From Cordylochernes scorpioides (lineage: Eukaryota; Arthropoda; Arachnida; Pseudoscorpiones; Chernetidae): 64,000 nt of DNA. A program made the position numbers and the translations under genes. Positions 5,265 through 63,120 of the stretch are shown piece by piece (position 1 is the first letter of the stretch; each line of letters starts with the position of its first letter). The notes beneath the pieces are model-generated. The model had not been told where the DNA came from and searched no databases. It was given only the letters and a program-made list of their open reading frames with translations. Location: assembly GCA_030710605.1 (NCBI GenBank), contig CP092870.1:94680941-94744940 (forward strand). Direction: 5' to 3'.

Positions 5265-6776
5265 ATGGAATATCGAACACATGCAAGCCCGCCGGCGCGC
5301 GAGGTGCTTGGAACGCTGGCTGCCGCGCGGGGTGACGTCACGGCGCCGCCGACTGCTGCTTCTTCCAGCGAGAATTTAGCCGACCCGGCCTCGCTCAACT
5401 GGGCCGACAGCGAGATGGCGGAGGTCGACGCCAACGACGACTACACCGTTGTGAAGAGCAAGAAAAGGCGCCTCTCTTCAACACCTGAGCACGCCGCAAA
5501 GCAGGCAAGCAGGCCTGCTGAGAAACGCGGCCCCCAGCAGCAGAAGCGGACAACAGGGCCGAGGTCAATGCCGCCCCAGGAAATCAAGGCGACGCGCGCC
5601 AACATCGCCGACGCCAGGGCGAGGCAGGCCTCTACCAACCATGAGAATTACGTCTTCGTGGAGCTGTGCCCAGACATCCCGGACTACTCCTACCTCAAGG
5701 CCATGAGCACGCTACTCGGGGGGCCAAAGAGCATCACGCAGTTCCATCGAATGAACGGCCACTTCATCGTGGGTCTTGCGGACAAGGAACTTGCGAACCG
5801 TCTGGTCGCGGACGGCCTGGAAATCGAGGGTACGTCCCTCAGGGTCTTCCCCTTCCGCAAAAGGGCGGAGCGCATAATCGTGGCCAACCTGCCCGGCTTT
5901 GTTGAGGACAGCACCATCGCGACTGCCCTGGGCCAATTTGGGAACGTCACCTCCATCGCCCCATCCTGGTCAAAATGGGCGAGTTCACTTTCACCGACGG
6001 CCGCCGGGAGGCGTTCATCCTGCTCCGCGAGGGCGTAAGGCTGGAGACGCTGCCCACCCGTCTGACCATCCACTCCAAGGGAGACACCCTGTCGGCCTTC
6101 CTCTCCTTTGGAATTAAGTGTTCCAAATGCGGTAAACAGGGCCACCGCAGAGTCAACTGCCCAGCGCTCGCCAGGCAAGGGAACGGCAGCCCCAGGCAAG
6201 CAGCGTCTCCCACCGACACAAGGCCCCCCCCTCCCTCCTCCTCAGCGACCAAGGAAGCCGGCACCTGCGCCCGCAACACCGGCGTCCCCTGTCCAACCGG
6301 CGAAGACTTCGGCCGAGGCTCAGGCGATCCCCTCGGCACACCAGCCTGCCGAACAGATGGATCTCACCCACCCCGCCCCTGCTGCCCACCCTGCTCCCCT
6401 GGCTGCCCTGCGGCCCCCCGAGCCTCGCATCCCTCCGCTCGACCAGGAGATGTCGGTGGAGAAGCTGTCCTCACCTCCCGCCACACCTGCCCGGGGAAAG
6501 GCCGCACTCGAACAGCTGCTGGAGCACCTCGAGAAGTCCCCCAACCCCTCCATCGACTGGGACAAGCTGCCCGACCTGAACTGCGAGGAGGCTCAGAAGC
6601 TCCTCACCTCTGAGACCACCATGAAGAAGCGAGCGCCCACGCTGACCGTGGCACAGGTCGCCGCCCTCAACAATTTGCACGATACCATCAAGGCCTTGTG
6701 CCCAGACTCCAACTCCACAATCCGCAAAACCCTCCAGAAGACCAGGAAGGTGCTGCGTGAAGGACGGCCCCAATGA
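5265..6776 (+). pseudogene. LINE ORF1: RRM-like, zinc-knuckle nucleic-acid-binding protein (two frame disruptions)
   Basis: ORF1 proteins of Tx1 and L1 elements bind the element RNA in a ribonucleoprotein particle. The first in-frame ATG is at 5265; the longer frame upstream lacks one. The N-terminus is acidic then basic (KSKKRR, KRGPQQQKR), suggesting a nuclear signal. Residues of about 125-230 look like one or two RRM-type folds (NYVFVELC, GHFIVGL, RIIVANLPGF). A CCHC knuckle, CSKCGKQGHRRVNC, is encoded near 6119-6160, followed by a proline-rich stretch and a basic C-terminus. The frame changes near 5960 (cgccccatcc) and again near 6225-6235 in a C run, then returns to the first frame until TGA 6774-6776. 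The shifts could be decay or sequencing error in homopolymers. Confidence 0.8.
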
Positions 6777-9700
6777 GTTACCGCGTCGCCACCATCAACG
6801 CGCGAGGGCTCGCCACTCGGGGGAGGAGCCTTGCCCTTTGTCATCTCCTCAGGCAACATCACGTGGACATCGCGTTTGTCCAGGAGACAAACGCATTTCA
6901 TCTGGGCAGCGGCCAAGACCTCTGCCTCGGCTACGGCGCTGTTGTGTTGGCCCATCCCGTAGCCATCTCGGGATCCGGACTCGCCTGCGTCTTCGGACCA
7001 GGCGTAGCCGTGCTACAACAGCGTATCCTGTGGCCGGGCCACATCGCCTTGGCAACAATAAATGTCCACGGCGAGGAAATGACGGCCATCGCCGTTCATC
7101 TGGCGCATGAACCCCGGGAGAAAAACCAACAACTGGAGCTCCTGGCGGCGACAGCGGCACAGGAAGAGGAGGGGGCCTGCTGGATCATCGGCGACTTTAA
7201 TATCAGGGATCGGGGCCCCTCATCATCATCATCATCGGATGCCCTCGCCGCTCTTCTGGACCTAGCCGCGCTGGTCGACGTGGCCACCCAGTTCGACGCC
7301 GCCCACCTGCCCACCAGAGTCTCCATGCACGGCGACCAAGTCGAATCCAACCGCCTGGACCGGATCCTCGTCCCTGCTGGAGTCCTGGATCGCGTGTCCA
7401 TCTACGCGACCAGCCACTACCACCTCTCGGACCACCGCCTCGTGCTGCTCCAGGTGGGCCCGCCCACCACCGCCGTCTCCCCCCCCCCACCCAGCCCCGC
7501 TTGGCCGCGATGCTCCGCTCGGGCCTCGTTCTCGAACATCTGGCTGGTTACATCCGGGAGCTCGAGGAAGACACGGCGCACGATGACGACGACGGGACCT
7601 TCTGGGATAGGTGGACCTCCATCAAGGCGGGGCTGCTGGCGGAGGCCAGATCCCTGCACGACCCACGCAACGCTGCCAACGACAGCTACGTCTACAGGGC
7701 GAGACGTTACATCGCGGCGCAGCTCGAGGCCTCCTCCATCCGGGCCGACTACCCATCGCTGCCGGACCTAGCACGCGCCATCCGCCTCCGACGCCCGGTC
7801 AGCGTCATCAGGGACGAGCAGGATAACATCATCGAGGGCCCCGAGCTTCGGCGGAGGGCATTCGCGACCTTCCAGCCCCGCTTCGCCCGTCCCACCAGCG
7901 ATCCAGCTGCGGGAGCTGCCTTCATCGCCAGCAGCGCGCCCACCACCACCCGCGAGCTGAGTGAGGAGGACCCGCTTCACCGGCCGGACATCAGCCCCAG
8001 CGAGATCGCCAACGCTATCGAGCACCTCCCTCGCGGAAAGGCCCCCGGCTGGGATGGCTTGCCGTGCGAGCTCCTCGTCGCCTTCAGCGAGGACTTCTTC
8101 GCGGAAGCTCTGGCCCGGGTGTTCGCAGCATCACGGCTCCGCGGTGCCCTGCCTCCGTCGACGCGGCGCAGCTCCATCTGCCTCGTGCCCAAGGCCCGCG
8201 GAGGTCGCGACCTTGATGGCTACAGGCCCGTCGCGCTGCCCTCGGCCGACTACAGGGTCCTGGCCGCCATCCTTCACCGGCGCCTCAAGCCCCACCTGCG
8301 GACCCTTGTGCCGGAATGCCAGACCTACGCCGTCCCCGGGAGGTCCCCGTCATGGAACAGCGCCATGGTGACGGACGCCATCGAGGAGGCCACCGCCCTG
8401 TGCTCGCCGCTGGCCGTCATGGGCGTCGACCTAGAGTCCGCCTTTGACTCATTGGACCGCGGCTTCCTGGAGTCCCTGCTAACATCCCTCCGCCTCCCGC
8501 CGGCCTTCATGGCCTGGATTAACATCCTCTACGCCGGGGCGGACGCCACCATCCGGGTCGGAGGCTTTCATACAACAGCCTTCCCCCTTCTCAACGGCCT
8601 CAGGCAGGGTTGCGCCGTAAGCGCCGCACTCTTCAGCATCGCCACGGGGCCGCTGCTACGTCGCCTGGAGTTGACCCTCGGCGTGGGCAATGTCATCGCC
8701 TACGCCGACGACATCGTCCTCCTATTCCATCGCGACGGAGACTTCGAGCGGGTGGCGACCGTTTTCGAAGATTACAGGCAGGCCTCCGGAATCGGCGTGA
8801 ACCTCCGGAAGAGCGCTGGCCTCTGGTGCGGCGCCTGGCGCAACCGCGGCGACTCCCCTCTCGGCGCCTCCTGGTCGACCACCTCCATCAGGGTCCTCGG
8901 GCTCGACATCGCCCCCAGGAGCACCGTCATCCAACGGGAGCAGCATCTCCTGGCCCTCCTGGAGACTGCATGCCGCAAATGGACGCCCTTCACCCGCGGC
9001 CTCTCCCTCGTCGGGCGAGCAAGAGCGGCGAACACGCTGGTGGGGTCTGTCATCCAGCACCACCTGCATGGATACCTTCCATCACCCCCGACCATCGCCA
9101 AGCTGCAGGCCCGACTGGCGAGGTTCGTCTGGGGACAAGACCACACGGCGTGGCTTCCCGCCAATGTCATGGCGAGGCCAGTTGCCATCGGAGGCCTCGG
9201 CCTCCTCGACCTCGCGACCCAACTCCAGCTCGCCTGCCTCAAGGGGGTGCAGGTCGCGCTCCGCGGGGGCAGAAATGCCTTCAGCTGGCTGGTCGGCGGC
9301 AACAGCGGGGAAGCCTGGATCCACCCTCCACCGGACGGCACCCGTCTCCAGCCCCGCCGTCTACGGCTGCTGAAGCTGTGGGAGGAGGCCTCCAACATCC
9401 TGGGCCTCAACCACCGGGCGGTCCCCACTGCTCAGCTGCTGGACCTCCCCATCATCGGCGGCTGCCGGTTCCTCCGCCCTCCCGACCTCCTGGTCCCTGC
9501 CCGCTGGCGCGGAGCCCGAGTCCGGGATCTCATCGTGGAGGAAAATCTCATCGCCCGCCCAACGCGCTCGGCCCTGGCTGACGCCGCGACCCTGGGCGCC
9601 TTCTGCCGGAGGCTGACCTCCGAGAACACCGTGGGCTTCGGGGCGGAGTCTACGCCCTCATCTAGCTCCTTAGCTACGGCCGTGGTGCTGCGGGGGACGG

Positions 9701-10242
9701 CTACGCCGTTCCTCAACGGCCTCACGACCCGCTCAGCCCGACGGGCCCTGGATCGCCCGCGCCTCGCCGCCACGCCCATCTCCAGATTCCTGGCGAGATG
9801 GACGCCCACCATCAATCCACCATCCAGGATCGACTGGGCCTCACTGCGGCGTTGCGCCTACTCGGGCCACGAGGCTGACGCGGCCCTCAAGTTGGCCCTC
9901 CACGCCCTGCCCCATCCGGCCCATCCTGCCTCGGTCGGCCCCTCCTGTCCTGCCTGCGGGTCCATCGACCGCTCCCTCGGCCACCGTTACTGGTGCTGCC
10001 GTTCCATCAGGCCTCTCATCAGAGAGGCCTTCAACATCATAGGGCGGCCCCCTGACCTGCAGGCTTGGATCTTCGGTGGGTCCAGCCTTGAGGACGACGT
10101 CCTTTCCATCCTGGCGTCGGCAAAGTTGCGAATTTATCGTTACTTTGTCCAGGTTGGGCTCGGAGAAGCGGTGGAGGACCCGCTCATCGCCTGGTCCAGG
10201 ACCCTCCAGCGCCGAGGTCTCCTACCTTTGTCCCTCTTGTAA
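6773..10242 (+). pseudogene. LINE ORF2: apurinic-type endonuclease and reverse transcriptase (one frame disruption)
   Basis: ORF2 carries out target-primed reverse transcription. It starts at ATG 6773, overlapping the ORF1 stop. The endonuclease shows INARG, FVQET, GDFN, NRLDRI and SDHR (about residues 7-220). A run of ten C at 7479-7488 shifts the frame; the remaining 900 or so codons follow in another frame. There the RT has GKAPGWDG, GYRPVALPSADYR, DLESAFDSLD, LRQGC and the catalytic YADD (AYADDIVLL near 8698-8725). The C-terminal region has a zinc-finger-like CPACG with downstream GH and CC near 9946-9999. QTYAVPGR and the KSAGLWCGAW segment support the Tx1 group over R1. One base change in the C run would restore a frame of about 1150 residues, so the copy is recent or mis-sequenced. 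Confidence 0.88.
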
Positions 10243-22960: not shown

Positions 22961-23057
22961 AGGCTTGATTTCTACGCTACAACTGGTGAAGAAGCTGGAT
23001 CGATACCCATTCAGAAAAAAACGGAAAATTGACTCGGTTGAGCAAGAAGAAAAAACC

Positions 23058-23636
23058 ATGAACATCAAGAAAGAAGCAACTACTCAGGTAGGTTCATTTT
23101 TTGTCCAACATCTACCTAGAAACCCCTCAATGTTCTCTGGTGAGGGTGTTGAAGATCCCCGTAGCTGGTTAAAAGGGTATGAACGTGTGGCGAAGCACAA
23201 CCAATGGGATGAAACCCTTTGTCTCGCTAACGTTTATTTCTATCTAACTGGCACTGCTCTCAAATGGTATGAAAACAACGAGGAAAGCATCCAGACATGG
23301 ACGGAGTTCATGTCAAAATTAGAAAATGTATTTGGAAAAAATGAAAGCTCAAGACTGCGAGCTGAGAAAATACTCAAATCTCGCGCACAATTAAAAGGAG
23401 AAAGCACCGAATATTACATCCAAGACGTCCTGCGCCTTTGCAAAGAGGTAGATCCACAAATGAATGAGGAAGATAAAATATCCCATCTGATGAAAGGGAT
23501 AGCTGAGGAGCTCTACCAGGCACTTCTCCCAAGGGATGTGCATAACACTGAGCAATTCGTCACCGAATGTCGCCGCATTGAAAGCCTACACTGTAAGCGA
23601 GTGACCCCTACCAAATACAATAGTAGAGCGGTCTAG
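23058..23636 (+). pseudogene. Retrotransposon gag fragment (Gypsy type), truncated
   Basis: Gag packages LTR-retrotransposon RNA. The first in-frame ATG is at 23058 in a good context (aaaccatga); upstream codons lack an ATG. About 190 residues show the Retrotrans_gag layout: MFSGEGVEDPRSWL, then YFYLTGTALKWYEN, a W..F...L block and a helical C-terminal half (KGESTEYYIQDVLRLC). The frame runs out at TAG where foldback F2 sequence begins (aatacaatagtagagcggtc, about 23618), so the rest of gag and all of pol are missing. It is not closely related to the gag of the element at 52368. Confidence 0.8.
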
Positions 23637-48590: not shown

Positions 48591-48610
48591 GAATAAATAG
48601 ATATGAATAT

Positions 48611-48984
48611 GATGCACTAGCGCGCCATCTGTTATCAAAATTCGAAACTATTTTAAAGGCGTAAGATTCTTTATGAAATTAAACAATTTCTACTGCCCTT
48701 ACTGCAATGTAAAAATTAATGGGATGGCCTGACTACTGTCCTCAAAGCTTATGTCCATAGTTCTTCTAAAATACCCATTCCAAGAGTCTATCAACAGTAT
48801 CACTATAAAAGGAAGTTCCAAAAATGCAATATAACAGCGGTATGGTAGATTAAACTGGCGAAACCGCTGGGAGGGTTCGCCACTGATGAGCCAGGCTCTC
48901 CCATTAATTTTTCCATTGCAGTTAGGGCAGTAGAAATTGTTTAATTTCAAAAAGAATAATACTCCTTTAAAATAGTTTCGAATT
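48611..48984 (-). repeat. Foldback F2, full-length, 13-base target duplication
   Basis: Flanked by tagatatgaatat at 48598-48610 and 48985-48997. On the plus strand it starts gatgcactagcgcgccatct, with arms from aattcgaaactattttaaag to aacaatttctactgccctta, and an interior with agcttatgtccatagttctt, ctggcgaaaccgctgggagg and cgccactgatgagccaggc. GCGCCATCT is at 48622-48630. The left end is the same as in the 51457 copy while the other end differs. Confidence 0.88.
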
Positions 48985-48999
48985 TAGATATGAATATAT

Positions 49000-49195: not shown

Positions 49196-49335
49196 CGTTT
49201 TAGTTTCCTCCATTCCAGAATTGATTAGAAGCGGCGCCTTTCTGGCTCCGAGAAAATGGGGTCAAACCGGGTGGAGCCACTCTCTCTAGCCGACTTGTTG
49301 GAGTCTATACGGTCTTTAATCGGGATTCTCGTCCG

Positions 49336-50470
49336 TTTGTAGCTTTTATAATCTATCGATTGACTTGGTAGGAGACATTTATAGCCTTTCTCATCTATTG
49401 ATTGACTTGGTGGAAGACATTTGTAGCCTTTCTCCTCTATGTATTGACTTGGTGGAAAACATTTGTAGCCTTTCTCATCTATAGATTGACTTGGTGGAAG
49501 ACATTTGTAGCCTTTCTCATTTATGTATTGACTTGGTGGAAGACATTTGTAGCCTTTCTCATCTATCGATTGACTTGGTGGAAGACATTTGTAGCCTTTC
49601 TCATCTATGTATTGACTTGGTGGAAGACATTTGTAGCCTTTCTCATCTATCGATTGACTTGGTGGAAGACATTTGTAGCCTTTCTCATCTATGGATTGAC
49701 TTGGTGGAAGACATTTGTAGCCTTTCTTATCTATAGATTGACTTGGTGGAAGACATCTGTAGCCTTTCTCATCTATCGATTGACTTGGTGGAAGACATTT
49801 GTAGCCTTTCTCATCTATCGATTGACTCGGAGTATATTTGTAGCCTTTCTCATCTATCGATTGACTTGGTGGAAGACATTTGTAGCCTTTCTCATCTATA
49901 GATTGACTTGGTGGAAGACATTTGTAGCCTTTCTTATCTATCGATTGACTTGGTGGAAGACATTTGTAGCCTATCTCATCTATCGATTGACTTGGTGGAA
50001 GACATTTGTAGCCTTTCTCATCTATGTATTGACTTGGTGGAAGACATTTGTAGCCTTTCTCATCTATCGATTGACTTGGTGGAAGACATTTGTAGCCTTT
50101 CTCATCTATCGATTGACTTGGTTGAAGACATTTGTAGCCTTTCTTATCTATCGATTGACTTGGTAGGAGACATCTGTAGCCTTTCTCATCTATCGATTGA
50201 CTTGGTGGAAGACATTTGTAGCCTTTCTTATCTATCGATTGACTCGGAATATATTTGTAGCCTTTCTTATCTATCGATTGACTCGGAATATATTTGTAGC
50301 CTTTCTCATCTATCGATTGACTCGGAGTATATTTGTAGCCTTTCTCATCTATCGATTGACTTGGTGGAAGACATTTGTAGCCTTTCTCATCTATAGATTG
50401 ACTTGGTGGAAGACATTTGTAGCCTTTCTTATCTATCGATTGACTTGAAATATATTTGTAGCCTTTCTAA
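49336..50470. repeat. 42-bp minisatellite, about 26 units
   Basis: Unit ttgacttggtggaagacatt, tgtagcctttctcatctatc, ga. Several units are 39 bases (ttgactcggagtatatttgt). Both lengths are multiples of three, so two forward frames stay open for over 160 codons, encoding 14-residue repeats (YRLTWWKTFVAFLI in one frame). There is no non-repeat coding sequence on either side, and variants such as Y/C and I/V swaps follow simple unit shuffling, so I treat it as non-coding. Confidence 0.93.
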
Positions 50471-51456
50471 TCAATGATGGTCGGTGTGGCGGTAGAGATG
50501 GAATGGACACGAGGACTGTCGACGGACTGTGACCTGGACTGGCGTGGATCGATACACCAAGGACTTGACCGACGTCCACCACGCCCTGACAATGGTCGAC
50601 ACTAGCTACTCCTGTAGATGTTAGATTCAATGTTACAAGTAAATCTACAAATCTCAAAGATCCTGGATATTCAAAATGGCTTTATTCAACTCGGTATACA
50701 GGACAAATATCTACAATTAGTGAACTGATGACGAGAGAATTTTGAAGGCTTAGTTAAGCAGTGGTTCTCAGCGATTCATCATTTTAATCCACCAAAGAAT
50801 TTTTACAATTAGCATATAAATTCACACACACAAAGCTTTATTAAGACCACCGGTCTTATACAGATTCACCACAGGAAGAAATAATAGATGGAGCTCCTAT
50901 ACTCCAGGCAGCGCAGCACCCAACAACAGCCTCCTGGTCCGATGCATGTCCAATGGCCACACGTTCCTTCGTGTATACGTCATGGGTAACGAATCACTGA
51001 ACAGGCTTAGTGTGGAATCAGCCACGTTCTAGTCTTCGCTTTCATCATCCAAATGGACCAGGACATTCGGCGATTCAATTAATCTCCTCCGAATGGTGTG
51101 ACTGCGGCCTTGTAGAATTTATATAAACCAAAAAGAAGAATTAGAATATATACCTATATGTTTGTACTTGAAGGTTTATTCTCGGTGTAGCTGTTTAATG
51201 GACTAGGGAAAGATGATTCTGTAACTGTAGAAATTCAAAAAATAGTTTTGCTTCGAGCATAGTTCTTCCTCTTAAAGGACAATACAATAAGAAGGTCTGT
51301 TCAAGCAAAATTGACTGGCTGTTAGTGACCCGGACTTCTGGAGCCACTTCATAAGTCGCCAATGGTCAGGGTTGGTCTTCAGACGTATTGTCTCGTTGTT
51401 GGCATCTAGCTGATCAGATGTCGCCAGACCGATTTGTTTTTAAAAGATTCCTTAAT
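50471..51456. other. Unclassified sequence with a family H copy
   Basis: 50827-50960 is a minus-strand copy of the AATAAA-hairpin family H (hairpin 50843-50857). The rest has frames under 80 codons and nothing I can name. Confidence 0.5.
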
Positions 51457-51742
51457 ATGATGCACTAGCGCGCCATCTGTTATCAAAATTCGAAACTATT
51501 TTAAAGGCGTAAGATTCTTTTTGATATTAAACAATTTCTACTGCCCTTACTGCAATGGAAAAATTAATGGGAGGGCCTGGCTCATCAGTGGTGAACCCTC
51601 CCTACCATGTATAGTAGATTAAACTGGCGAAACCGCTGGGAGGGTTCACCACTGATGAGCCAGGCCCTCCCATTAATTTTTCCATTGCAGTAAGGGCAGT
51701 AGAAATTGTTTAATATCAAAAAGAATCTTACGCCTTTAAAAT
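51457..51742 (-). repeat. Foldback F2, compact copy, 12-base target duplication
   Basis: Flanked by agattccttaat at 51445-51456 and 51743-51754. Arms 51497-51602 and 51638-51744 are near-perfect inverted repeats of about 106 bases around a 35-base loop that holds ctggcgaaaccgct. GCGCCATCT is at 51470-51478. The left end (atgatgcactagcgcgccat) is that of the 48611 copy; the right end stops within the arm. Confidence 0.92.
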
Positions 51743-51754
51743 AGATTCCTTAAT

Positions 51755-52019
51755 GTCTTTCCATTCCATATGTTGACACCGAGGATGGTTACAGTCTGGA
51801 ATATCTGGAGATGGGGACATCTGAAGGTGGTCGACAATTTGGCTTTCTTCTTGACAGAGCGAGCAGTGAAATTCGCTGTTGGAAATTCTTGCAACATCCG
51901 CTTGCACAAAGCCATGTGCAATGTGGATGTGGTGTTGCATAATTTGATTTTTGTAAGCATGGAATTTAGAATTCTGTGAGATGCTGCCAATCTTGTGGAG
52001 TGATCTGTTGTATATATAT
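51755..52019 (-). other. Possible remnant of a reverse-transcriptase C-terminus
   Basis: The minus strand stays open for about 100 codons with FHCSLCQEESQIVDHLQ, a CXXC and downstream H pattern like the zinc segment at the end of Jockey/R1-type reverse transcriptases. No other conserved block is present, so this is weak. Confidence 0.25.
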
Positions 52020-52333
52020 TGAGACGTTACAGAAACAATTTTCAATTGTACATAATTTCCTTTAAAATGTTATTTTAATTTTTCATGTGTTTATTTTCAT
52101 TTTTATTTTCCATTCATTAAAAGTCAATGATGTACATACTAAATTAGTAAAAACTCAATAAAAACGATATGTAAAAATATACATAAACAAATGGCTTGTA
52201 AAAGAAAGCAGCAATAAATGAGTTTAGGCAAAATGTCCATTTCATTAACAAACATTTCACTTTTAAAATAATAAACTTTAAAAATAAAGTTTTACTAAAC
52301 TAAAATTAGCGTTTTAAAAATAAAAACGTGGCA
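52020..52333 (+). repeat. 5' LTR of the Gypsy element
   Basis: Very AT-rich; contains several AATAAA-type signals (for example ctcaataaaaacg and gcaataaatgag). Identical to the 3' LTR except C at 52238 where the other has T at 56242. Confidence 0.97.
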
Positions 52334-52335
52334 TT

Positions 52336-52346
52336 TGGCGCAGTCG
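52336..52346 (+). promoter_or_regulatory. Primer-binding site, tRNA-Ser type
   Basis: TGGCGCAGTCG lies two bases after the LTR. It is complementary to the 3' end of serine tRNAs of the kind used by 17.6 and 297 of Drosophila. The match stops after 11 bases (then aaaagg). Confidence 0.75.
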
Positions 52347-52367
52347 AAAAGGATACGGAAAAAGAAA

Positions 52368-55300
52368 ATGGCGGAAAATCCAAACAACCGGTTGCAAAAA
52401 TTCAACGGCTCGAAGTCGGCAATTAGGCCTGAGTCATGGATCAAATTATATGATTTTGAAAATAATTCTTTAAAAGAAGATGAAAAAATCAAAAATCTTA
52501 TGTACTACTTGACAGATTCAGCACTTGAATGGTACGCAGACGAGATTATTTCAAATCCTGCAATAAAAAGATGGGAAGTTGTAAAGGAAAAGTTGATTCA
52601 AAGATTTGGTTCATACAACGCAAATCCAATTGTCTCAGCATCACATCGAAGATTAAAACGAGAAGAATCAATAGAAAATTATTTTCAAGATAAAATTCGC
52701 CTGTTAAATCAAACCCATCTAACGAAGGAGGAAAAAATTCATTTATTAACAGACGGACTTCCAAATGATTGGAAAGATTTAATTGTGGCTGCACAGCCAA
52801 CTGACACCACGAAATGGTTCCATATCGCAGCTTCAATTGAACAAAATAGGGCTTCAATTCAGTTTAAGCCTAAAAACAAAATACATCTCGCGACAAAAAA
52901 TAATGATAATAGAAAAAATGTTTGCCCATTCTGGTGTCCAATATGTTCGAAAAAGGGAATAAAAATTAAACATTGGGTCACAGATTGTGAGGATTATGAT
53001 CCTAATTATAAAAAGGATAGGCCTAATCAAAACACTTCAGTGAAACAAGTATGCGGAGCCCCGGAATTGTTGAATGTAAGTACTTTGACAAATACCCCTA
53101 CACAAGGAGCTTTCAAGCTTATCAACATAAGTGTTGAAGTAAATGGAATTCCTGCGCAAGCATTTGTGGATACTGGAGCAACAGTATCAATAATCAATTG
53201 GCGATTGTTCAAGCGAACCCGTCTTCAACTTCAACCAAATTCAGACATTCACATCAGCCAAGCGGATGGTGTTACCAGGACATGTGGAAGCCTTCAGACC
53301 AAGGTAAGAATAGATAAACTAATTAAACCTGTAACTCTCCATGTAATGAAGAACTTTAAATATCCACTCTTGATCGGATTAGATGTTGCATATCTTTTTA
53401 ATCTTTTAATAGATGTCAAAGACAAAACAATTTACACCAAATTTGATGGATTACAAAATCCAATTCTTGTAAATCATCTAGAAGAGATAAGAGAACATGA
53501 ATTAAAAAAATTACTTGAACACAATAGGAATGTATTTTGTCAGCATGCTATTGATTTGGGAAAAGTAGCTATACAGCATAAGATCATCACGAAAAGTGAA
53601 CAACCAATTTCTCTTAGACCCTATCGTCGTCCTCTAAAAGAATATGAAGAGATAGCTGAACAAGTTAAAGAACTTCTCGAACACAAGTTAATAAGAATTT
53701 CAGATTCTCCTTGGGCATTTCCTGTTGTTATGGTTCCCAGGAAGGATGGAAATAAAAGGATGTGCATTGATTACAGACGTCTTAATGAGATCACACTGGA
53801 TGACAGGCAACCCCTACCTCACATACAGGACATGTTTGATCGATTGCATGGATCCAGATTCTTCTCTACCCTTGATGTTGCATGGGGTTATTGGCAGATC
53901 GAAATGGACCCGCAATCTATTCAAAAAACTGCATTCGTCACAAACGATGGTCATTATGAGTTTTTAGTGATGCCCTTTGGTTTAAAAAATGCTGCTTCAA
54001 CGTTTCAAAGGATAATCCAACATATTCTAGGTGAATTGTTATGGAAAGGAACTTGCTCTTTCCAAGATGACATATTGGTGTACACGAAAACATGGCAAGA
54101 GCACATAGAGCTTCTTAGTAAAGTTTTTGACAAATTAAGACAGTACAACATGAAATTAAAATTGTCGAAATGTATTTTTGGAAGAACTGAAGTAAAATAC
54201 CTCGGACATATCATCAGTCACAATCAATTAAAACCTGATCCAGGAAAAGTAAAATCTATTCAAGACTTTCCAAGACCTGATACTGTAAAGAAAGTTCGTC
54301 AGTTCATGGGATTGGCAAATTATTACAGAAAATTTGTGAAGGACTTTTCTAAAATTTCATTCCCCTTGGTTCGACTCACTCGGAAGAATCAGCCCTTCAT
54401 CTGGAATGAGGAAGTAGAGGAGTCATTCGCTAAACTTAAAATGGCACTATCTCCAAAACCTGTCCTTGCTATTTACAACCCGGACTACCCCTCTAAAGTT
54501 TATACAGATGCCTCCAAATATGGAATTGGAGCAATCCTAACACAAATTGGTCCAGACAATGAGGAACATGTAATTGCTTATTACTCCAAAACACTGCAAC
54601 CACACCAAGAGAATTATTCTGCTTATGAGATGGAATGCCTAGCCGTAATACAAGCAACTGATCACTTTCATGTATACATAGAAAACCAACCATTTGAAAT
54701 CATCACTGATCATGCGGCGCTCCAATGGCTTTTCACCATGAAGAAACCGAAACCTAAGTATTTTAGATGGATTCTTAGTTTATCCTCGAAATCATGTAAC
54801 ATCGTTCATCGTTCTGGAAAGCAACAAACTCATGTTGACGCCTTATCAAGACTCCCAGTTGTTAACATTGCAACTCAAGAACTTCAAGAACACCAACAAA
54901 ATTCAGATTTGAGTTTCTTGAAAAATTCCCACACTCACGACGGTGTGGTAATGATCAAACAAAAAGGAGTTTTTAAAGCAGTTGTCCCAAACTCGCTTAC
55001 CAAAAAAATATTGGAAGAATATCACGATTCATTGAGTCACCCATCAATAACCAAAACATGCAAACTTATAACTCAATGTTATTGGTGGAAAGGAATAACA
55101 ACTGATATCAAGAATTATGTTCGATCTTGTAAATCTTGTCAACTAGTGAAGGTCAGACATGAACCAACTTTAGGAGAAATGATCACTCCAACGTCAAATA
55201 TCCAACCATTACAAATGATCGGTTGTGACACTATTGTACTGGGAACAGCGGCAGCTAACACAAAGCATAAATTCATTCAAGTTTTTGTTGATCACGCAAC

Positions 55301-56003
55301 TCGTTATCTATGGGCATATCCCACAATAACAAACACTGCTCAAGCTGTCACTCAATGTCTTGATAAGATAATCAAATCTGTTAATTCGATCAATACTATC
55401 TTAACAGATAATGGCAAAAATTTTATATCAAAAGAGTTCAACAAATTTCTTTCTTTACAAGGAATTAAACACACATATACTTCGCCTTATCATCCTCAGT
55501 GCAATGGCATTTGTGAGAAATTAAATGATACGATAATGACAAAACTGAGAATAGCTGTTCTAGAGAAACCTAGATGTAAATGGAGCTCATTGTTACCGCA
55601 AGTTGTCAAAAATTATAATTCCACACCACATGACGTGACTGGTTTTTCACCGCTTTTCTTAATGTATGGAATCGGTAATGTACCCGAATTTGCCGACCAA
55701 ACTCCAATTACAATTGAAGAAGCCAGGAAGAAAGCTAGCCTGCGGACAGAACAATTTAGAAGTAAGTGGAAGATTAAACACGATAGCCATCACCCCAAGT
55801 ATGTCTTTAAAGAAGGAGACTTAGTCATAAGAAAAATTGCCTTCAACGACCCTCGTCTCATCAAGACATCACCAAAATATGAAGGACCATTTGTCATTCA
55901 AAAAAAGATATCTGATGTAACCTACGATATCTCTCTGAAAGACCAAAAGCAAGCAAGACGCGTTCACATATCTCAACTTCGACCATTTATTACCCGAGAA
56001 TAA
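52368..56003 (+). CDS. Gypsy gag-pol polyprotein
   Basis: A 1211-residue polyprotein. ATG 52368 is the first in frame. Gag covers about residues 1-190, with WIKLYDFEN, ALEWYADE and a C-terminal zinc-like CPICSKKGIKIKHWVTDC whose C-H spacing (eight) is longer than the usual four. The aspartic protease has DTGA at 268. RT: LGYWQ-type AWGYWQIEM, and FQDD (catalytic aspartates 567-568) in place of the common Y-x-DD. RNase H: YTDAS (714) and TDHAAL. Integrase: HHCC zinc with CKSC, then D954, D1014 and E1050, the last pair in D35E spacing. It ends RVHISQLRPF, without a chromodomain. Gag and pol share one frame, so no frameshift separates them. It is copied via RNA and inserted into the nuclear genome. 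Confidence 0.97.
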   Translation: MAENPNNRLQKFNGSKSAIRPESWIKLYDFENNSLKEDEKIKNLMYYLTDSALEWYADEIISNPAIKRWEVVKEKLIQRFGSYNANPIVSASHRRLKREESIENYFQDKIRLLNQTHLTKEEKIHLLTDGLPNDWKDLIVAAQPTDTTKWFHIAASIEQNRASIQFKPKNKIHLATKNNDNRKNVCPFWCPICSKKGIKIKHWVTDCEDYDPNYKKDRPNQNTSVKQVCGAPELLNVSTLTNTPTQGAFKLINISVEVNGIPAQAFVDTGATVSIINWRLFKRTRLQLQPNSDIHISQADGVTRTCGSLQTKVRIDKLIKPVTLHVMKNFKYPLLIGLDVAYLFNLLIDVKDKTIYTKFDGLQNPILVNHLEEIREHELKKLLEHNRNVFCQHAIDLGKVAIQHKIITKSEQPISLRPYRRPLKEYEEIAEQVKELLEHKLIRISDSPWAFPVVMVPRKDGNKRMCIDYRRLNEITLDDRQPLPHIQDMFDRLHGSRFFSTLDVAWGYWQIEMDPQSIQKTAFVTNDGHYEFLVMPFGLKNAASTFQRIIQHILGELLWKGTCSFQDDILVYTKTWQEHIELLSKVFDKLRQYNMKLKLSKCIFGRTEVKYLGHIISHNQLKPDPGKVKSIQDFPRPDTVKKVRQFMGLANYYRKFVKDFSKISFPLVRLTRKNQPFIWNEEVEESFAKLKMALSPKPVLAIYNPDYPSKVYTDASKYGIGAILTQIGPDNEEHVIAYYSKTLQPHQENYSAYEMECLAVIQATDHFHVYIENQPFEIITDHAALQWLFTMKKPKPKYFRWILSLSSKSCNIVHRSGKQQTHVDALSRLPVVNIATQELQEHQQNSDLSFLKNSHTHDGVVMIKQKGVFKAVVPNSLTKKILEEYHDSLSHPSITKTCKLITQCYWWKGITTDIKNYVRSCKSCQLVKVRHEPTLGEMITPTSNIQPLQMIGCDTIVLGTAAANTKHKFIQVFVDHATRYLWAYPTITNTAQAVTQCLDKIIKSVNSINTILTDNGKNFISKEFNKFLSLQGIKHTYTSPYHPQCNGICEKLNDTIMTKLRIAVLEKPRCKWSSLLPQVVKNYNSTPHDVTGFSPLFLMYGIGNVPEFADQTPITIEEARKKASLRTEQFRSKWKIKHDSHHPKYVFKEGDLVIRKIAFNDPRLIKTSPKYEGPFVIQKKISDVTYDISLKDQKQARRVHISQLRPFITRE

Positions 56004-56023
56004 ATGCTTCAAGAAGGGGAATA

Positions 56024-56337
56024 TGAGACGTTACAGAAACAATTTTCAATTGTACATAATTTCCTTTAAAATGTTATTTTAATTTTTCATGTGTTTATTT
56101 TCATTTTTATTTTCCATTCATTAAAAGTCAATGATGTACATACTAAATTAGTAAAAACTCAATAAAAACGATATGTAAAAATATACATAAACAAATGGCT
56201 TGTAAAAGAAAGCAGCAATAAATGAGTTTAGGCAAAATGTCTATTTCATTAACAAACATTTCACTTTTAAAATAATAAACTTTAAAAATAAAGTTTTACT
56301 AAACTAAAATTAGCGTTTTAAAAATAAAAACGTGGCA
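56024..56337 (+). repeat. 3' LTR of the Gypsy element
   Basis: Same length and ends as the 5' LTR, one mismatch. It is preceded by the purine tract. Confidence 0.97.
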
Positions 56338-56504
56338 ATATATTTCAATTTAATCGTTTTGTGTAAATATTTTTGTTTTGATACTATTTTTGTGATTTTT
56401 TTACCCATTTTTTTTACTTGACTGTTGACTGGGGTCAATAAAAACCTTTTTTTTTTAATTGTCAATCTGTCTCTCTTTTTTTACAATACGAAGACAATTA
56501 ATAA

Positions 56505-56580
56505 AAATAAAAATGGCATATCCTGACCAGGAGCACATGTGCTTTACAGAAGGTAGAGCGCCATCTGGTGGAACAGAAAT
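56505..56580. repeat. Half of foldback family F5, with CTCF-like site
   Basis: gcatatcctgacca, gagcacatgtgcttt and agagcgccatctggtgg match one arm and the centre of the element at 62195-62344. On the minus strand CCACCAGATGGCGC (positions 56571-56558) fits the CTCF core consensus. Confidence 0.65.
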
Positions 56581-56654
56581 CAACTAAACATTGATTTAGC
56601 CTATTCCCTGTTATTTGGCTAACCCAATTTCTTGATAAATCAAGAAAAGCCATT

Positions 56655-56692
56655 CACGAACGCGTTTCGCGCTTTTGGCGCTCGTCAGCGTG
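56655..56692 (-). ncRNA. Hammerhead ribozyme, type I, compact
   Basis: Minus strand, 5' to 3': helix I strand CACG (56692-56689), CTGACGA (56688-56682), stem II GCGC with loop CAAAA and GCGC (56681-56669), GAAA (56668-56665), minimal helix III ACGCGT, T (H17), then CGTG (56658-56655), which pairs with CACG. All conserved core positions fit CUGANGA/GAAA, the G10.1-C11.1 pair is present, and cleavage would fall between 56659 and 56658. Helix III is the palindrome ACGCGT, as in hammerheads thought to act as dimers in Penelope-like elements and satellites. No Penelope coding sequence is nearby. Confidence 0.7.
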
Positions 56693-57100
56693 GAGTAGGC
56701 TGTACCACAATTATATAACACGGGTATACCTTTATTTATTCTAATTTTTCTTTCTTCCTCTATATTTTCTTCAGCCATTGCTGTATTTCCCGGGAGAATC
56801 TATAAGAGTAGAGGTCTTAATCAAGGTATTGATGGATTGATTTTAACGTGTGAAAGAAGGGGTTTCAGAGCCGACCCTCCTACCTGTAGAACTGAGGAGC
56901 CTTGGACCTTGTTTGCCACCAAGACATCCAATGGACCGTACATCCCCAGGATCCATGGTGAGTCAGTCATTCTGTAGTCGTACATACTATAGAGCCAGTG
57001 GGAACTGACTCAAGTCGATGTGTCATTGAAATATGGAGATGACCTTGCCTTCCCATGTAGAGTGGTCGTCTCTTTCCAACATCTGTGAAATCTCTTTATT
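56693..57100. other. No supported gene; family H fragment
   Basis: 56793-56825 resembles family H with a four-pair hairpin (56804-56818). 56860-57060 is GC-richer with no long frame. Confidence 0.4.
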
Positions 57101-57935
57101 TATCGCTTGTATTGCTTTCTCCTTACAACTACATGTGGGAAACTTATTTATTTACCCGTGTGTAGTTTAGTTTTCTCCTTCCATCTCTGTCTGGCTTTTT
57201 ATCTTTACAACTACATATGTGTAACTTCTTTATTTACTTCTTGTACCTTAGTTTTCTCCTTCCATCTCTCTCTGGCTTTTTTCTTTATAACTACATATGT
57301 AGAACTTCTTTATTTACTTCTTGTACCTTAGTTTTCTCCTTCCATCTCTCTCTGGCTTTTTATCTTTATAACTACATATGTAGAACTTCTTTATTTACTT
57401 CTTGTACCTTAGTTTTCTCCTTCCATCTCTCTCTGGCTTTTATCTTTATAACTACATATGTAGAACTTCTTTATTTACCTCTTGTACCTTAGTTTTCTCC
57501 TTCCATCTCTCTCTGGCTTTTTTTTATATAACTAGATATGTAGAACTTCTTTATTTACTTCTTGTACCTTAGTTTTCTCCTTCCATCTCTCTCTGGCTTT
57601 TATCTTTACAACTACATATGTAGAACTTCTTTATTTACCTCTTGTACCTTAGTTTTCTCCTTCCATCTCTCTCTGGCTTTTTTTTATATAACTAGATATG
57701 TAGAACTTCTTTATTTACTTCTTGTACCTTAGTTTTCTCCTTCCATCTCTCTCTGGCTTTTATCTTTACAACTACATATGTAGAACTTCTTTATTTACTT
57801 CTTGTACCTTAGTTTTCTCCTTCCATCTCTCTCTAGCTTTTTTTCTTTACAACTACATATGTAGAACTTCTTTATTTACTCCGTGTAGTTTAGTTTTCTC
57901 CTTCCATCTCTCTCTACATGTTTATTCTTTACCTT
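57101..57935. repeat. About 80-bp minisatellite, ten to eleven units
   Basis: Unit actacatatgtagaacttct, ttatttacttcttgtacctt, agttttctccttccatctct, ctctggctttttatctttat. Frames open through it (74-92 codons) only because the repeat lacks stops in them. Diverged units trail to about 58060. Confidence 0.93.
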
Positions 57936-58277
57936 TCCATTGTAGGCTGGATTTTCTTTCAATTACATATGTAGACCTTCATCTACCCCGTTTAGTTTAG
58001 TTTTCTTCTTCCAACTACATCCTCTCCGTCTACCCCAATGTAGTTGGAATCTCCTTTACTTCATATGTATAGCTTCGTCGTAGTTTCCTGGTAGTTCCAG
58101 GAGAACCCGCGTTATCTCTTTTTTCGCCCATTGTTGTTCCTTTTGTATAATAATTGTCATCTGTAATATAAATTGCATCATATAGATCTGACTATATATT
58201 CAACCCACTTGAATTCAAGTAAATTCCTATTTATAGATGAAAATAGAAACCAAGAATAAGCCTTCCTATGCAGACGA
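57936..58277. other. Degenerate tail of the 80-bp array, then unclassified
   Basis: Fragments such as acatatgtagaccttc and tttagtttagttttcttctt decay over about 120 bases. Nothing else is seen. Confidence 0.5.
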
Positions 58278-58680: not shown

Positions 58681-58790
58681 TCTCACGCGATAGTAGATTG
58701 AATTGACGAAATCTCCGGGAAGGTTCTCCACTGATGAGCCAAGCCTTCCCAACTAATTTCATCTGCAGTCCATTTCTTTTAGAAAAATTC
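58680..58790 (+). repeat. Foldback F2 core fragment
   Basis: ttgacgaaatctccgggaag and ttctccactgatgagccaag, ending aactaatttcatctgcagtc. It resembles the F2 core with the GCCAA form of stem II. Confidence 0.7.
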
Positions 58791-59900: not shown

Positions 59901-60775
59901 CCGCTAGACAACAGACAATAAATAATGTTGTAGATCTATATCAATTTGTAAATAGCAGAGAGAATTATCACAGGTTTAACTTTTTTTTGTAGATATATTT
60001 ATGATTATCTTTCAAACCTGAAAGGTTCAGGTTCCTAATATATATTATTGTTTCTCCTTTTATTTTTGATTACTTTTTTCTTGTATAATATGTTTGTAAC
60101 TGTTTCTGTTTAAAAAAAATGTAAATCAACGCAATTATCCCTAGCCGGGATACCGCGTTTTGTATGTTAAAATAAAATAAAACTGAATATGTTGGGGAGT
60201 ATCTAACGCATTGTTGGGATATGCAACTCGATGTTGGAGTATGTAACCAGGCAGGAGACAATTCGCATGGAGAAATCAACCAGGAAGAAGTACATCCGAA
60301 GACACAAGCGGATTTCCGACAGGCTTCTGAGAATTTCAACCAGTCGAGACTTCGTTATCAGGATCCACAGCGATATCAGAGACGTCATGTTCGTGGAATG
60401 ATTTTGGTTTCAATGTCTTACAGAGTCTGGATTTCATTTGGCAGCTCAACACCAAAAAGCTTGTTTCAAATAAAGGTTCTATATATAATAAGCTCATGCA
60501 TTGCCTTCTTTTGTGACTAGGGAAAATCACAGTGAGAATCCCAACTACATCACCTCATGAAATTACAAGCTCCTTCCGTAGGATGTTACAGACTCGAAGT
60601 CTTCCCTGTACTGATGAAGGCCATAGCATGAAACCATGGTATACAATTTTTTTGTTTTGTTATTGTTGCATACTAACTGAATCTGTACGTTCAAGGCAGA
60701 AATGAACATGATTCGTTATTTTGATGCATTTTTATCTTAGATAGGTGTCCCTCTTTTTTTTTGCACATAAATATA
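59901..60775. other. No supported gene
   Basis: Frames up to 99 codons on both strands overlap and have no domain. Nothing else supported. Confidence 0.45.
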
Positions 60776-60860
60776 AACTGGCAAAACCGCTGGGAAGGTT
60801 CACCACTGATGAGCCAGGCCCTCCCATTATTTTATCATTACAGTAAGGGTAGTAAGAAAT
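60776..60860 (+). repeat. Foldback F2 core fragment
   Basis: aaactggcaaaaccgctggg, aaggttcaccactgatgagc and caggccctcccatta, ending agtaagggtagtaag. GAAA has become AAAA. Confidence 0.75.
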
Positions 60861-61006
60861 TGTTTCCTTTTAAAAAAACACAAACGCGCCAAAAAAAGTT
60901 TATATAAAATATAATAAATAGATGTCGTGCTAATGACTCTCATAAATATATGCATTTCCCTCTTTAATAATAATATTAGTATTGTTATTATTATTCCTAG
61001 TAAGGT

Positions 61007-62194: not shown

Positions 62195-62344
62195 ATATTA
62201 AAAATAAAGAGAGCATATCCTGACCACAAGCACATGTGTTTTTTAGATGGCAACGTTAGTTTATTTTTCTCCACTAGATGGCGCTCTGCCATCTAAAAAG
62301 CACATGTGCTTGTGGTCAGGATATGCTCTCTTTATTTTTAACAT
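62195..62344. repeat. Foldback MITE, family F5, with CTCF-like site
   Basis: Arms of 56 bases (62195-62250 and 62289-62344): ttaaaaataaagagagcata, tcctgaccacaagcacatgt, ttttagatggca. The loop contains CCACTAGATGGCGC (62270-62283), which fits the CTCF core consensus at every position. A half copy is at 56505-56580. Confidence 0.92.
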
Positions 62345-62679: not shown

Positions 62680-63120
62680 TCTACAGACCCCTTACCGCAA
62701 GGATTAAAAATTATTGATGAGAGGGCTTGTGGAGAGGTTAGATTGACCAAATCTAGCTAAGCTCGCCTTGCGGCGCCACCGCCGGTGAGAAGTGGTGCGC
62801 CTCCGTAGTTGGTGACGAAGAATCAGAGGTGGTGCGCATGCGCGGCGGAAAAAAGAATATGTCATAAATCTCCAGAAAAGAGGAAAGTGGAAATCAGCCA
62901 AACCAAATGTAAAAATTGGAGATTTAGTCTTTGTTTAGTTCTCTTTCTGGAGATTTATAACATATTATTTTTTTCCAAAACGCAAAAAATTATTCAGCTT
63001 GGCTCATCAGTGATGAATCCTTTTAATGATTTCGCCAAATTAATCTCCGGACCGCTCTACACTATTGCATTTACTATAGAAGACAGCTTTATCGATGGAT
63101 GGCAATTGAATTTATAATAT
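62680..63120 (-). repeat. Foldback F2 copy split by another hairpin element
   Basis: One F2 arm (tctacagaccccttaccgca, gatgagagggcttg) is at 62680-62730; the rest (ggctcatcagtgatgaatcc, gatttcgccaaattaatctc) is at 63000-63065. Between them, 62845-62885 and 62940-62980 form inverted repeats sharing ataaatctccagaaa, so a second foldback element has probably inserted. Confidence 0.65.

Follow-up and report, generated by a model that had tools for sequence, protein, structure and literature searches.

A short sequence on the minus strand of a Cordylochernes scorpioides contig, at 56692-56655 of the window (the whole 64,000-nt stretch of DNA analysed), carries the segments of a hammerhead ribozyme, and raises the question of whether it is a potentially active ribozyme and what kind of element carries it. 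The reading favoured here, with a probability of about 0.72, is that the hammerhead is potentially active and sits on a small mobile unit of its own, be that unit of retrozyme or of Penelope pseudo-LTR (pLTR) origin, a reading that overlaps with one of the alternatives weighed below. On this reading, a mobile element with a hammerhead is present in a pseudoscorpion, a combination of terms (hammerhead ribozyme and pseudoscorpion) that was not found in a full-text search limited to one library of open-licence papers.

The hammerhead core and its extended helix I

Read on the minus strand from 56692 to 56655, the core consists, in this order, of the segments CACG, CTGACGA, GCGC, CAAAA, GCGC, GAAA, CGCG, T, T and CGTG, which provide the inner strands of helix I (CACG/CGTG), the CUGACGA segment, helix II (GCGC/GCGC) with its loop CAAAA, the GAAA segment, and U at position H17. 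The conserved CUGANGA...GAAA...UH thus follows the type I arrangement, in which helix I is open, and all core positions are filled. The inner part of helix I and helix II comprise 4 bp each without a mismatch, and the G10.1-C11.1 pair is seen; segments, order, perfect helices and this pair had all been listed in a preliminary description of the locus, and all were confirmed by reading the sequence. Three helices surround the core, of which helix III is merely the single pair A15.1-U16.1, capped by the palindromic tetraloop CGCG. Because ACGCGU is self-complementary, two copies of the motif would be able to form a 6-bp helix III. The predicted cut site is expected between 56659 (H17 = U) and 56658 (C1.1); hammerheads with U at H17 are cleaved more slowly than those with C.

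The fold extends beyond the core (56648-56701, minus strand), where AGCC (56701-56698) can pair with GGCT (56651-56648) to form an outer helix of helix I that the preliminary description had missed. Outer and inner helices are separated by an internal loop, UACUC (56697-56693) and AAU (56654-56652), facing the helix II loop CAAAA, and the motif possesses both loop 1 (UACUC/AAU) and loop 2 (CAAAA) of the type I fold, with position L2.4 of the latter differing in two copies. The earlier term 'compact' therefore holds for the minimal helix III, but not for helix I, which keeps the canonical type I internal loop and outer helix.

Within the 64-kb window there are two occurrences of the bare pattern CTGANGA-13N-GAAA, against 0.15 expected, and the other one (56774-56751) was returned by neither of two scans that apply pairing rules. 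In the first of these scans, the only site in the window was 56692-56655 (listed twice, with two helix II lengths), and the control gave five sites in 200 Markov-1 windows, or one under stricter limits. With a tighter motif definition, the window again contained one site, and 1500 random windows, searched on both strands, contained two matches. Since both chance matches also passed a lax test for the outer helix, that helix is weak evidence when taken alone.

Comparison with Rfam, proposed in the preliminary description as a check, gave an ambiguous answer. No hammerhead family matched at gathering thresholds, and the sole hammerhead match was Hammerhead_HH9 (RF02275), which has the same helix order and core and was aligned over its whole model (56704-56639), but scored 27.3 bits where gathering requires 52. 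Its E-value was 6.3e-5 when 301 bp were searched, and 0.013 in a search of the whole window with all 4227 families. At E <= 0.5, the whole-window search returned 15 matches, involving HH9, 13 microRNA models and one bacterial sRNA model. The 14 non-hammerhead matches are all below gathering level, yet several of them, lying on palindromic repeats, reach far lower E-values, and the Rfam E-value alone is therefore not decisive.

Folding energies were calculated with a nearest-neighbour model that ignores tertiary contacts. The active monomer fold has an energy of -13.3 kcal/mol without helix III and -7.2 kcal/mol with the lone A-U pair forced, compared with -16.1 kcal/mol for the best fold. For the active dimer fold the energy is -33.9 kcal/mol; the most stable dimer fold reaches -42.1 kcal/mol, and two best monomers together -32.2 kcal/mol. 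The active form is thus not favoured by the model, as the best monomer and dimer folds are lower in energy. For the 111 nt around the motif, the fold z-score is -1.65, with 14 of 200 shuffles folding as well.

The 206-bp unit and its copies

The preliminary description had located the ribozyme at the margin of a retroelement that it left unclassified. That view was not borne out, as the neighbour is a recognisable Ty3/gypsy LTR retrotransposon with near-identical LTRs on the other strand (52020-56337, plus strand; protease, reverse transcriptase, RNase H and integrase by Pfam), and the ribozyme lies in a 206-bp repeat of its own, 163 bp beyond the gypsy LTR. Over 318 columns, the two LTRs (52020-52333 and 56024-56337) share 99.4% identity, and ATAT(AT) flanks the element at either end. 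The best protein matches of the element are from C. scorpioides at 97-99% identity, in a search that scored 7992 candidates and gave 118 proteins at E <= 0.001. As a carrier of the ribozyme, the gypsy element is ruled out by its own LTR ends, the flanking ATAT(AT) and the opposite coding strand.

The 206-bp element (56501-56706, minus strand) is small, apparently non-coding and of 43.2% GC, and carries the hammerhead at its 5' end, starting 2-5 bases inside the unit. It is delimited by 7-bp direct repeats of TAATTGT, a putative target-site duplication (TSD) with its 5' copy at 56707-56713 and its 3' copy at 56494-56500 (both given for the minus strand). In a control slid at the same spacing, the probability of at least 7 matching bases was 0.021 over 42305 placements, tandem repeats included, for a repeat that was first picked by eye, with the control made afterwards, and with ends that are each free by 4 bases. 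The 3' boundary lies at most 2 bases from the point where homology to a second copy stops. This second copy (62256-62340, plus strand; blastn, and nhmmer E 5.9e-12) is 5'-truncated and lacks the ribozyme, with 72 of 86 aligned columns identical to the element's 3' 86 bp, and is accompanied by an inverted 58-bp arm (62195-62252, minus strand; 97% complementary, nhmmer E 4.8e-5), such that the 3' part of the element is arranged head-to-head at 62195-62344. Both nhmmer values are from a single-sequence query. The RNA of the 206-nt unit, 62% of whose bases are paired, has a fold z-score of -2.6 as a circle (1 of 200 dinucleotide shuffles as good) and -2.4 in linear form (4 of 200).

Only one hammerhead was returned from the 64-kb window by both pairing-rule scans, with no tandem hammerhead units, and no tRNA genes, which would point to a SINE-type promoter, were found in the window by ARAGORN. 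DNA patterns for the repeat and for the ribozyme gave 0 and 0 matches in viral contigs. Inside the element, CCACCAGATGGCGC occurs at 56558-56571 on the minus strand, where the second copy carries CCACTAGATGGCGC; we take CCACCAGATGGCGC to be close to the CTCF binding consensus. A minisatellite of approximately 80-bp units (57117-58016) lies just upstream of the element in the element's sense.

Traces of further copies come from proteins. Six-frame translation of the element gave four protein matches at E <= 10 among 1025 candidates, all four from C. scorpioides: P0120 (E 7.5e-27), P0121 (4.4e-13), P0122 (1.3e-4) and the weak P0123 (8.6; locally 3e-8 and 4e-5), encoded on four contigs, of 208, 86, 173 and 104 Mb. 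These are read here as gene models run over repeats, and copies deduced in this way hide synonymous changes and may have their homology cut at exon ends. The only Pfam domain precomputed for the four is PF07727 (in P0123), which we take to be a copia-type reverse transcriptase family and not one of Penelope-like elements (PLEs). P0120 is aligned across the entire ribozyme with 55 of 62 residues identical, and its back-translation is compatible with the motif at 38 of 38 positions, at 21 of which the genetic code allows no base other than the one seen here. Among the positions covered by the others, 27 of 28 are compatible in P0121, 8 of 8 in P0122, 30 of 31 in one piece of P0123 and 9 of 9 in a second, opposite-strand piece. 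The sole departures from the motif, in P0121 and P0123, concern the loop base L2.4, and for every base of the catalytic core, including U16.1 and H17 = U, one or more of the other copies must carry the same base (for U4, the weak P0123 alone). The earlier suggestion that this is a type I hammerhead, with the tiny and palindromic helix III of those that act as dimers, is supported, and these protein-level traces are compatible with it.

Affinities, proposed mechanism and alternatives

Metazoan retrozymes, whose hosts include axolotl, mussel and coral, have units of about 170-400 nt that carry type I hammerheads, have a GC content below 50% and occur in tandem copies; their TSDs, when present, exceed 4 bp (Cervera and de la Pena 2020, PMC7229834). 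A tick retrozyme, from Argas monolakensis, is drawn in PMC4918200. The present unit resembles these non-LTR elements in its full helix I, its size and GC content within those ranges, its non-coding nature and its direct repeat longer than 4 bp. In the axolotl ribozyme HHR_Amex1, helix III likewise consists of one pair and a palindromic tetraloop, a weak helix shared by the motif at 56692-56655, and cleavage is efficient only in the dimer (PMC7229834). Palindromic stem-loop III sequences permitting dimers also appear in PMC3088659, and dimer cleavage is described for newt and viroid motifs (PMC6155905). By contrast with metazoan retrozymes, the element here is single, without a tandem hammerhead at the locus, and has its ribozyme at the extreme 5' end; tandem units, which define retrozymes, were sought in the 64-kb window and not found. 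Its 62% of paired bases also differs from the 'above 70%' given for putative retrozymes (PMC4918200).

PLEs carry minimal hammerheads, without helix III or loop-loop contacts (PMC7761336), and one Penelope hammerhead cleaved only upon addition of its protein (PMC11167929). In a rotifer, the pLTRs of PLEs measure 181-218 bp, several insertions have TSDs of 8-10 bp while others have none, and inverted pLTRs are common (PMC3846280). With PLEs and Terminons the present element shares a tiny helix III, a unit of about 200 bp, a short direct repeat and, apparently, inverted copies, but its helix I is non-minimal, and no reverse transcriptase or GIY-YIG frame accompanies it among the frames scanned. 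These were 9 of the 17 ORFs of at least 150 aa and four short frames, in none of which the telomerase-like reverse transcriptase/GIY-YIG frame of a PLE was seen.

Judged by its sequence, the unit would be a hammerhead-bearing small retroelement of known kind, combining the ribozyme plan of retrozymes with the size, putative TSD and apparently inverted arrangement of pLTRs. It is assigned here to neither retrozymes nor PLEs, because there is no tandem at the locus and no Penelope frame in the 13 frames scanned. A Penelope link of the ribozyme element is plausible. In the proposed mechanism, a transcript in the minus-strand sense would cut itself between U17 (56659) and C1.1 (56658). The active form would probably be a dimer of two copies, joined via ACGCGU/ACGCGU, since helix III comprises one base pair and a palindromic CGCG loop. 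The cut RNA, with a cyclic 2',3'-phosphate and a 5'-OH at its ends, might be ligated into a circle or used directly, and another retroelement, probably a Penelope-like one, would supply the machinery for its reverse transcription, with insertion leaving short TSDs.

An account that departs from this in part takes the 206-bp unit for a solo pLTR of an autonomous PLE of the host, and not for a separate non-autonomous retrozyme, a possibility to which we give well below even odds. Its 206 bp and 7-bp repeats fit the lengths, TSDs and inverted copies of rotifer pLTRs (PMC3846280), as do the head-to-head copy at 62195-62344 and the opposite-strand pieces in the gene model P0123, and one lizard PLE hammerhead is located at the pLTR-ORF junction (PMC11167929). 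On the other hand, the minimal ribozymes of PLEs (PMC7761336) contrast with the internal loop and outer helix found here, none of the 13 scanned frames contains a GIY-YIG domain, and PF07727 is all that the precomputed Pfam domains of P0120-P0123 offer. A chance or decayed, inactive hammerhead carried in a dead repeat is somewhat less probable still. The missing gathering-level match in Rfam, the more stable non-ribozyme folds, the weak fold z-score around the motif, the U at H17 and the lone hammerhead at the locus all speak for such a relic, against which stand the intact core, the rarity of the tighter motif in random windows (2 matches in 1500), and copies that are compatible throughout the motif, with their sole departure in a loop.

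That the host has domesticated the ribozyme, in a manner akin to the intronic HH9 and HH10 motifs of amniotes, is highly improbable, even with HH9 as the best Rfam match and an exon-like open frame (56775-56957) adjoining the motif. This frame, for which no homologue was found, is on the opposite strand, and the ribozyme is therefore outside its pre-mRNA. The only host gene recognised on the ribozyme's own strand, NDUFA5, is 4.4 kb off, and the motif is dispersed together with its repeat.

The favoured reading, a potentially active hammerhead on a small mobile unit, may be taken one step further, into a speculative proposal that we regard as unlikely: the family would form a bridge from retrozymes to PLEs, in that its hammerhead is canonical and bears loops while the unit around it is pLTR-like in size, TSD and inverted arrangement. 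If this were true, animal retrozymes would be liberated pLTRs of PLEs and would be moved by them. 

Both ends of this single unit are apparently defined, and it can therefore serve to test by what machinery animal retrozymes are moved; full copies sharing their ends with a PLE of the same host, if they exist, would directly support the proposed partnership.

Other features of the window

The NDUFA5 (complex I B13 subunit) sequence consists of a C-terminal exon on the minus strand (61324-61124), recognised by solved-structure matches with E 3e-16 and with a Pfam score of 13, under the cut-off of 27. The exon-like frame at 56775-56957 on the plus strand is flanked, by eye, by splice-like AG and GT; it matches no Pfam family and no protein at E <= 10, and a single solved structure at E 0.64.

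Palindromic fold-back repeats of one family, which contain GAAA...CTGATGA and a 5-bp complementary segment, are found at 51479-51761, 48606-48990, 58690-58751, 60763-60902 and 62997-63046. At 48842-48903 and 51611-51672, GAAA and CTGATGA occur together with a possible helix II, in the order of a type II hammerhead. A type II hammerhead was rejected for them by eye, as the intervening 19 nt leave no room for helices I and III, and Rfam gave no hammerhead match at E <= 1 in the one copy searched, at 51440-51770. The microRNA matches on these two repeats are read here as long-hairpin artefacts.

Frames resembling a non-LTR retrotransposon, with endonuclease and reverse transcriptase domains, lie at 6773-10242, where nhmmer detected no similarity to the ribozyme element. 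A Gag frame (22965-23636) has weak similarity, below cut-off, to the Arc capsid domain. A tandem repeat at 49202-50517 comprises 42-bp units, roughly thirty by span, with a 254-aa frame open through 49402-50166 and with spacings of 42, 39 and 159 that are all multiples of three.
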